Assembly (NCBI GenBank): GCA_902586195.1 | Contig: CACIGF010000001.1 | Location: 248,001-312,000 of the forward strand | Source: an uncultured beta proteobacterium | GTDB lineage: Bacteria; Pseudomonadota; Gammaproteobacteria; Burkholderiales; Burkholderiaceae_A | Length of the DNA: 64,000 nucleotides | Reading direction: 5' to 3' | In this document: piece after piece, positions 7,950 to 48,062 of the stretch | Layout: each line of letters opens with the position of its first letter | Position numbering within the stretch: the first letter of the stretch is position 1 | Program-made: the position numbers and the translations under genes | Notes under the pieces: generated by a model | The model's database searches: none | What the model was told of the DNA's origin: nothing | Seen by the model: the letters and a program-made list of their open reading frames with translations, nothing else

Positions 7950-8030
<81 letters not shown>

Positions 8031-8037
8031 ATTATTT

Positions 8038-8114
8038 CTGCCGGTAGCTCAGCTGGATAGAGCAACAGCCTTCTAAGCTGTGGGTCGGGGGTTCGAATCC
8101 CTCTCGGCAGGCCA
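8038..8114 (+). tRNA. tRNA-Arg (anticodon TCT)
   Basis: The acceptor stem CTGCCGG/TCGGCAG (last pair G-U), D-arm GCTC-AGCTGGATA-GAGC, anticodon stem ACAGC/GCTGT with loop CTTCTAA, T-loop TTCGAAT, discriminator G and encoded CCA are all present. UCU reads AGA and AGG, the arginine codons favoured in AT-rich genomes. It starts seven bases after tRNA-Pro. Confidence 0.97.
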
Positions 8115-8165
8115 GGTGCGAATGGGTGTTTTTCACCGATTTTTTGTTTAGAATGTTGGAACATG

Positions 8166-8241
8166 GTGGTCGTAGCTCAGTTGGTAGAGCCCCAGATTGT
8201 GATTCTGGTTGTCGTGGGTTCGAGCCCCATCGACCACCCCA
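8166..8241 (+). tRNA. tRNA-His (anticodon GTG)
   Basis: The acceptor GTGGTCG/CGACCAC, anticodon stem CCAGA/TCTGG with loop TTGTGAT, T-loop TTCGAGC, discriminator C73 and encoded CCA are visible. The extra G-1 needed by histidyl-tRNA synthetase is encoded at 8165. The discriminator and CCA (8238-8241) also form the 5' side of the hairpin described next. Confidence 0.97.
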
Positions 8242-8635: not shown

Positions 8636-8668
8636 CTTTTCATTTATAAATGATATTATCTGAGTAGT

Positions 8669-9348
8669 ATGCCAGACTTAAAAAAAAAAATGCAGCCTAC
8701 GCTGCTCTAAACCATATCAGTGAGGGTTGTTTTCTGGGTGTCGGAACAGGATCGACCGTAAACTTTTTCATTGAGGCTTTAATTATAGCTGGGAAGCGTT
8801 TGGGCGGAATTGTCACAACATCTCAACGGAGTGAGGAGTTACTCAGAAAAGGAGGATTCAACCCCAAGCCGCTTACAGAAGTAAAACAACCTTTGGATGT
8901 TTATGTTGATGGAGCTGATGAAGTGGATCCAAGATTTAATCTGATAAAGGGTGGGGGAGGTGCGTTAACTTCAGAAAAGATCGTAGCCAATAACGCAAAA
9001 AAATTTATATGTATCGTGGACGAAAGCAAATTAGTTCAAAAACTCGGCAAGTTTCCGCTCCCGATAGAAGTGATTTCCTCTGCAGTGCCGTCAGTATCAA
9101 ATATTCTTAAAAATGATTACAATGGGATTCCTAGGAATCGGGAAGGTTTTACGGAGCACGGAAATAGGATTATTGATGTCGCCGGATTAGAAATCGAAAG
9201 CCCGGAAACACTGGAGAGGGAATTAAATCAAATACCAGGTGTCGTAGCGGTAGGACTGTTTTGCAAACTAAAGCCGTATTCTTGCCTCGTAGGTTATGAT
9301 GAGGGGGTAAACGAGATTTTTAAAAAAGATGTAATAAAATTGTACTAA
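8669..9348 (+). CDS. rpiA: Ribose-5-phosphate isomerase A, frame-shifted at a poly-A tract
   Basis: RpiA interconverts ribose-5-phosphate and ribulose-5-phosphate in the pentose phosphate pathway. From 8692 on, one frame reads AAYAALNHISEG then the substrate loop VGTGSTV, followed by DGADEVD, KGGGGALTSEK and LGKFPLPIEV, all hallmark RpiA motifs, to a normal C-terminus. The only good start, ATG 8669 (MPDLKKK), lies in another frame: the run of 11 A at 8680-8690 is one base short of 12 (or two long of 9). In the present frame translation from that ATG stops at 8708. A corrected product would be 226 residues, normal length. Starting at the internal TTG 8800 would delete the GTGST loop, so I treat the gene as whole but shifted, by sequencing error, mutation or slippage-dependent expression. 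Confidence 0.85.
8680..8690 (+). repeat. Run of 11 adenines at the rpiA start
   Basis: The tract encodes the Lys-rich N-terminus of RpiA and is where the reading frame changes. Homopolymers of this length are prone to RNA polymerase slippage and to replication or sequencing errors. Confidence 0.9.
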
Positions 9349-47286: not shown

Positions 47287-48062
47287 TGAGATTTTGTTGT
47301 CTAGCAAGTGGTAGCGAAGGTAATTGTACTCTTATTGAGTCCTCCGAGCAAGGTGAAACTCTGCGCATTTTAGTTGATTGCGGTTTAAGTTTTTCTCTTT
47401 TAAAACGGAAACTTCTAAATCGCGGCATCCTACCTGAAGAAATTCATGGCGTATTCATTACTCATGAGCATTCTGATCATTGCAAGGGAATTGTTCCGCT
47501 AGTAAAGTTTTTGGAGGTCCCGGTTTTTATGACTTATGGGACCTATTTAGCAAACAAAGAGATGCGGAAAAATTTGAAACCTATCTTTTTGTCGCCCCAT
47601 AAAAAGGTTTTATTTAAAGGATTAGGGATAAACCCCTTTCCTGTCCCACACGATGCAAGAGAGGCTGTCGCTTTAACAGTAGAAAGTAACAGTTTTAAGA
47701 TCGGTATCTTAACAGACGTAGGGGTAATAACTAAAACCATAAGGGATGAGTTAGAAGACGTTGATGCATTAATTTTAGAGTTTAACTATGACGACGACTT
47801 GTTGAGTAGATCAAAGTATCCTGAGGGACTAAAAAAGAGAATCACATCCATGTATGGTCATTTATCAAATTCTTCTGCTATAGGATTTACAAAAGACTTT
47901 TTACAGAGAGAAAGGAAAGTCTTAGTCGCTGCTCATCTGAGTAACAGTAATAATTCTCGTAATTATGTCGCCGCTTTACTGAATAAATTGTGTCACGAAA
48001 AGAAAACTGAATCGTTCATTGCAGATCAAGACAATGGCACCCCCTGGATTAATTTGGGTTAG
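47286..48062 (+). CDS. Metallo-beta-lactamase-fold hydrolase, YycJ/WalJ-like
   Basis: The 258-residue protein has the MBL metal motif THEHSDH (59-65), further ligands in HDA and LTDVG, and the start FCCLASGSEGNCTLIE typical of the YycJ/phosphoribosyl cyclic phosphodiesterase-like group. Relatives have been proposed as 5'-3' exonucleases in DNA repair or as wall-linked regulators; the substrate here is unknown. The GTG start overlaps the last base of the bamC stop. Its 3' end overlaps the opposing membrane-protein gene by 14 bases. Confidence 0.88.
   Translation: MRFCCLASGSEGNCTLIESSEQGETLRILVDCGLSFSLLKRKLLNRGILPEEIHGVFITHEHSDHCKGIVPLVKFLEVPVFMTYGTYLANKEMRKNLKPIFLSPHKKVLFKGLGINPFPVPHDAREAVALTVESNSFKIGILTDVGVITKTIRDELEDVDALILEFNYDDDLLSRSKYPEGLKKRITSMYGHLSNSSAIGFTKDFLQRERKVLVAAHLSNSNNSRNYVAALLNKLCHEKKTESFIADQDNGTPWINLG

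Follow-up and report, generated by a model that had tools for sequence, protein, structure and literature searches.

An rpiA start codon separated from its reading frame at an 11-A tract in related Burkholderiales, and its probable rescue by slippage

Introduction

How might a full-length RpiA protein be produced from a gene whose start codon and coding region lie in different reading frames? This question is raised by rpiA in the window, by which we mean the whole stretch of 64,000 nucleotides that was analysed. An earlier note on this DNA had claimed that the RpiA frame has no start codon, that the only plausible ATG is out of frame with it, and that the two are joined by a shift in a run of A residues of the kind known to permit slippage of RNA polymerase.

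Results

The RpiA frame meets its start codon only through a shift

In the window sequence, ATG CCA GAC TT is followed by an uninterrupted run of 11 A residues (A11; 8680-8690, + strand) and then by TGCAGCCTACGCTGCT, such that the tract begins 11 bases past the first base of the start codon ATG at 8669. Read from this conserved ATG, the zero frame (8669-8710, +) gives MPDLKKKMQPTLL and then a stop, and comprises 13 codons. The RpiA frame opens at 8668, directly past a TAG at 8665-8667, and the ORF check of the window revealed no ATG, GTG or TTG in this frame upstream of the TTG at 8800. The ATG and the post-shift RpiA frame (AAT GCA GCC ... TAA; 8689-9348, +) can be joined only by a -1 shift, meaning one extra A (or two fewer) in the tract, a change that a -1 ribosomal frameshift at A_AAA_AAA would describe equally well. 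The earlier description of a startless frame and an out-of-frame ATG is thus exact, including the TAG, the length of the tract and the single added A that joins the two.

The shift-joined protein, which begins MPDLKKKNAAYAALNHISEGCFLGVGTGST..., is matched by the NCBIfam RpiA model NF001924 with 233 bits (cut-off 192) from profile position 7 of 223 and by TIGR00021 with 202 bits (cut-off 126), and it aligns to solved RpiA structures from its first residues and N-terminal helix. This agreement with the RpiA models bears out the claim that rpiA requires a shift at A11. The alternative considered in the earlier note, a start at 8800, is not upheld because the protein would lose its N-terminal portion, phosphate loop included: the ORF from this TTG matches only positions 52-220 of NF001924 (189 bits, under the cut-off of 192) and lacks about 50 profile positions and the VGTGST loop. 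The N-terminal helix, the VGTGST loop and the start codon share one frame only after the -1 shift.

The genus alignment described below suggests a candidate -10 element, TATTAT after TG (8653-8659, +), about 9 bases upstream of the ATG, from which a very short rpiA leader is possible. A sigma-70 scan identified no full promoter upstream of rpiA, and the leader has no match among the viral contigs searched.

The frame break is kept in two sister species

Eight genomes of the genus, all incomplete, were compared (G000 is the window's own genome). A search of genome contigs identified two sister species, AH-736-P17 (G006) and MED-G174 (G001), whose RpiA proteins are 92% and 84% identical to that of the window. 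In both, the ATG, the 11 A residues and the out-of-frame arrangement are all as in the window, and the tract has neither the 12 nor the 9 A residues that the earlier note had named as signs of an error. Because the identical tract and break occur in two separately assembled species, assembly error or chance is very unlikely and the window sequence is taken to be correct.

Values of dN/dS among the rpiA genes of these three genomes are 0.15-0.24 at dS of 0.24-0.49, which argues that the shifted RpiA frame has been kept under purifying selection. The constant A11 is weak evidence by itself, since A-tract lengths are generally conserved between G000 and G001. The strength of the evidence therefore lies in the kept frame break together with selection on the shifted frame, and not in the constancy of the tract.

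The start ATG aligns across all seven genus members that have rpiA. Among the more distant members, the tract is 10 A in G005 and 8 A in G002, both in frame, and G007 carries no A run at this location. The rpiA gene of G003, with 9 A and the motif A_AAA_AAG, likewise requires a -1 shift from the aligned ATG; it also has an additional in-frame ATG 24 bases upstream of the aligned one, which looks to overlap an apparent -10 element. In other genera of the family and the order, each of the 40 rpiA loci inspected starts in frame. A second isomerase gene, for which the earlier note had advised a search, was not found: no rpiB turned up in any of the eight incomplete genus genomes, and the control search recovered it in E. 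coli and others.

Other genes in the genus are broken at long A tracts

Breaks of the same kind were observed in further genes. The truB gene is split mid-gene at A11 in G001 (contig C32, about 47749-48047) and at A10 in G006 (C1, 37899-38197; stretches L184, L128, L237 and L241 for the two genomes), and is one A short in both. Each of these genomes yielded the two halves alone and no second truB copy, and the gene is one open frame in the other genus members with a match. Constraint is equal on the two sides of the break, with a dN/dS of 0.21 upstream of it and 0.22 downstream. In G002, pgk is split at an A10 that is one A short (C7, about 303769-304355; L295 12995, L300 and L307). This is the sole copy found, and pgk is open in all six other genus genomes where it was located. 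The nudB gene has an A10 after its GTG that places it out of frame in G001 (C8, 21994; L193) and G006 (C49, 29528; L194), and an A11 that leaves it in frame in G000; in G001 and G006 the start may instead be an ATT or a GTG further along. A histidine phosphatase of G005 is probably also broken, by an A12 that is one A short (L311, position 323, - strand), in an assembly that contains Ns.

The truB, nudB, pgk and histidine phosphatase breaks would all be mended by one more A or by a -1 ribosomal shift. When rpiA is counted twice, with G003 apart, all six events go one way (binomial p 0.03). The value is 0.125 if a doubtful case is counted against, namely nudB of G005, which would need the opposite shift and lies in an assembly containing Ns.

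Several other candidates were set aside. The plsC gene of G006 is in frame at its A10, in L087 the ORF downstream of an A10 begins at an ATG of its own beyond the tract, and many apparent switches at A8-A9 are ordinary gene boundaries. Separately, a frame without a start codon follows a ribosomal-protein L31-like ORF in G002 (L288, position 12712, -), with a TTG and A10 just upstream. This frame, for which the analysis gave no identified protein, may be a further start-proximal break.

To relate breaks to tract length, A tracts were tallied in stretches of G001, G006, G003 and G002. These tallies are approximate, as they combine a hexamer score with judgement by eye of the flagged cases; a hexamer scan for start-less frames alone gave excess noise. 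There were 655 coding A8-A9 tracts in frame, and no verified break at this length other than rpiA of G003, which the script scores as in frame because of its upstream ATG. For tracts of 10-11 A, 42 in frame compare with breaks in rpiA, truB and pgk (Fisher test p 0.001 by gene, from an earlier hand-made tally). Verified breaks are therefore nearly confined to tracts of at least 10 A, which places them where slippage is expected to be efficient. G000 has 46 distinct tracts of at least 10 A, and the gene-internal ones other than that of rpiA are all in frame, which suggests that tract lengths are generally assembled correctly. A further run, with 22 A at G000:C1:237683-237704 (L055) and 19 A in G001, is apparently non-coding.

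A hairpin adjoins the tract, and a terminator-like element lies on the opposite strand

A hairpin of the form GCAGC-CUAC-GCUGC (GCAGCCUACGCUGC; 8692-8705, +) adjoins the A11 tract, 5 nt past the heptamer at 8680-8686, and has an energy of -6.5 kcal/mol when considered alone. The same 14 bases are present in G001 and G006, such that the stem is unchanged across the three species and covariation offers no informative changes. The fold is better than expected by chance in G001 and G006 (z-scores -2.2 and -2.9), whereas in the window (z-score -0.6) it does not outperform shuffles and a longer alternative fold is predicted. The predicted hairpin is a possible stimulator of ribosomal slippage. Inspection by eye shows no comparable hairpin downstream of the truB, nudB or pgk tracts, which speaks for a cause requiring nothing but the tract.

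On the opposite strand, the same bases resemble a terminator, with a hairpin followed by A and T11 (8680-8705, -; 1 found versus 0.1 expected in shuffles), as a match to the consensus. This element is located 45 bases upstream of a divergent gene for a CxxCxxCC-domain protein (8635-8246, -), and its bases are the same in G001 and G006. A terminator between antisense rpiA and this gene might constrain the tract separately. Three tandem tRNA genes (7954-8238, +) are located between pstB and the CxxCxxCC-domain gene.

Discussion

Slippage on A tracts as the probable explanation

We consider it probable that RpiA is restored from some transcripts through slippage on A tracts, chiefly of RNA polymerase, to a degree that depends on tract length. 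RNA polymerase would slip on A11 to yield a mixed pool, in which transcripts with one added A (or with a net change equal to +1 modulo 3) would encode full-length RpiA and the remainder would terminate translation after roughly a dozen codons or further on. A share would perhaps come from ribosomes that slip -1 on A_AAA_AAA before the small hairpin. Long A tracts would be slippery enough for such breaks to be tolerated, both here and elsewhere among the genes of the genus. From these sequence patterns we infer that functional RpiA is made from the broken frame, with polymerase slippage as the main route. The lower or variable pentose-phosphate flux that the earlier note had proposed would be a hypothetical consequence.

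As the earlier note had said, slippage on A tracts is established: published bacterial cases include polymerase slippage on A/T runs of at least 9 (PMC5009743, PMC6260861). Several of these cases favour insertions (PMC5009743, PMC6260861), and in one report the E. coli enzyme gave mostly deletions on A11 in vitro (PMC6260861). Three observations go beyond the earlier note: the break is kept between species, it recurs with the same direction in further housekeeping genes of the genus, and a hairpin that doubles as a terminator-like element on the opposite strand follows the tract.

A possible but doubtful alternative is that the hairpin stimulates programmed -1 ribosomal frameshifting at the A_AAA_AAA of 8680-8686, in which case the mRNA would be unaltered and the shifted fraction possibly regulated. 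A zero-frame heptamer with a 5-nt spacer to the hairpin is found in G000, G001 and G006, the A_AAA_AAG motif of G003 is among the most efficient in E. coli when paired with a stimulator, and -1 slippage on such heptamers is established. Furthermore, every clear case in the genus needs -1. This nearly uniform one-A-short direction is explained at least as well by a -1 ribosomal shift as by polymerase slippage, and ribosomal slippage would also agree with the presence of a hairpin past the rpiA tract. However, such motifs shift rarely and weakly in E. coli without a stimulator, and polymerase slippage on A11 is expected in any event. Because no such hairpin is seen by eye at the truB, nudB and pgk tracts and the fold in the window is weak, we prefer polymerase slippage as the shared cause, to which ribosomes may contribute at rpiA.

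Phase variation, whereby replication changes the tract length to switch cells on and off and the assemblies capture the off state, appears quite improbable. The homopolymer does adjoin the start codon, and lengths of 8, 9, 10 and 11 A occur among more distant genus members, but the same off length is present in three species. Moreover, since rpiA is the only known isomerase gene found, off cells should be unfit without slippage. It is also very improbable that translation of RpiA begins without any shift, from a rare in-frame start codon (ATC or CTG) past the tract. Such codons exist, but G001 has CTT in place of the CTG, and the N-terminal helix would be lost despite conservation of both the ATG and the LKKK segment. 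A homopolymer sequencing or assembly error in each genome is the least probable explanation, for although all are drafts and error rates climb with homopolymer length, the tract is identical in three separate assemblies and other coding tracts of at least 10 A in these genomes are in frame.

Implications

Slippage on A tracts, the reading that we prefer, would bear on a wider pattern. Most descriptions of housekeeping genes that have a single copy and whose frame break is kept by slippage come from insect endosymbionts, and weak selection is usually held responsible there. The present lineage, to judge from isolate names and genome type, is probably free-living and marine. Breaks that recur in such a lineage, are conserved and run nearly always in one direction would show that slippage can be a lasting component of gene expression outside symbionts. 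In environmental genomes, genes of this type will tend to be annotated as pseudogenes or as lost, which would create false gaps in central metabolism. A more speculative and, in our view, improbable reading is that a free-living aquatic genus routinely expresses rpiA, pgk, truB and nudB through one-directional A-tract recoding that is conserved between species and possibly sets dose, as opposed to carrying passing mutations.

Our literature search, conducted largely without subscription papers, found no report joining rpiA and transcriptional slippage and none on such frameshifts in free-living marine bacteria. It likewise found none on the MED-G174 or AH-736-P17 isolates.

Comparison with known systems

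The rpiA break matches the conserved poly-A frameshifts known from Blochmannia and Buchnera (PMC3017870, citing Tamas 2008 and Wernegreen 2010). Those frameshifts are rescued by transcriptional slippage, and they resemble the present case in that a single indel within a long A/T tract breaks a housekeeping gene that has no second copy and persists across species without decay. Here too, the break is confined to a long A tract and is kept in three species under purifying selection. The hosts differ, as Blochmannia and Buchnera are obligate insect endosymbionts, whereas the genus described here comprises apparently free-living Burkholderiales with genomes of 1.1-1.9 Mb and 38% GC. The evidence differs as well: slippage has been demonstrated in the endosymbionts (PMC3017870), whereas here it is predicted from genome sequence.

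Another likeness is to dnaX of Thermus thermophilus and E. coli, where an A-rich slippery site is also used to make a product, by polymerase slippage at 9 A/T in Thermus and by a -1 ribosomal shift at A_AAA_AAG in E. coli (PMC5009743). However, dnaX gives two functional products (PMC5009743), whereas the unshifted product of rpiA is a 13-residue peptide and the enzyme needs the shift. The tssM gene of Citrobacter rodentium is similar in that a prematurely interrupted gene is rescued by transcriptional frameshifting (PMC4256274). That gene serves type VI secretion in one species (PMC4256274), whereas rpiA belongs to central metabolism and its break is kept over several species.
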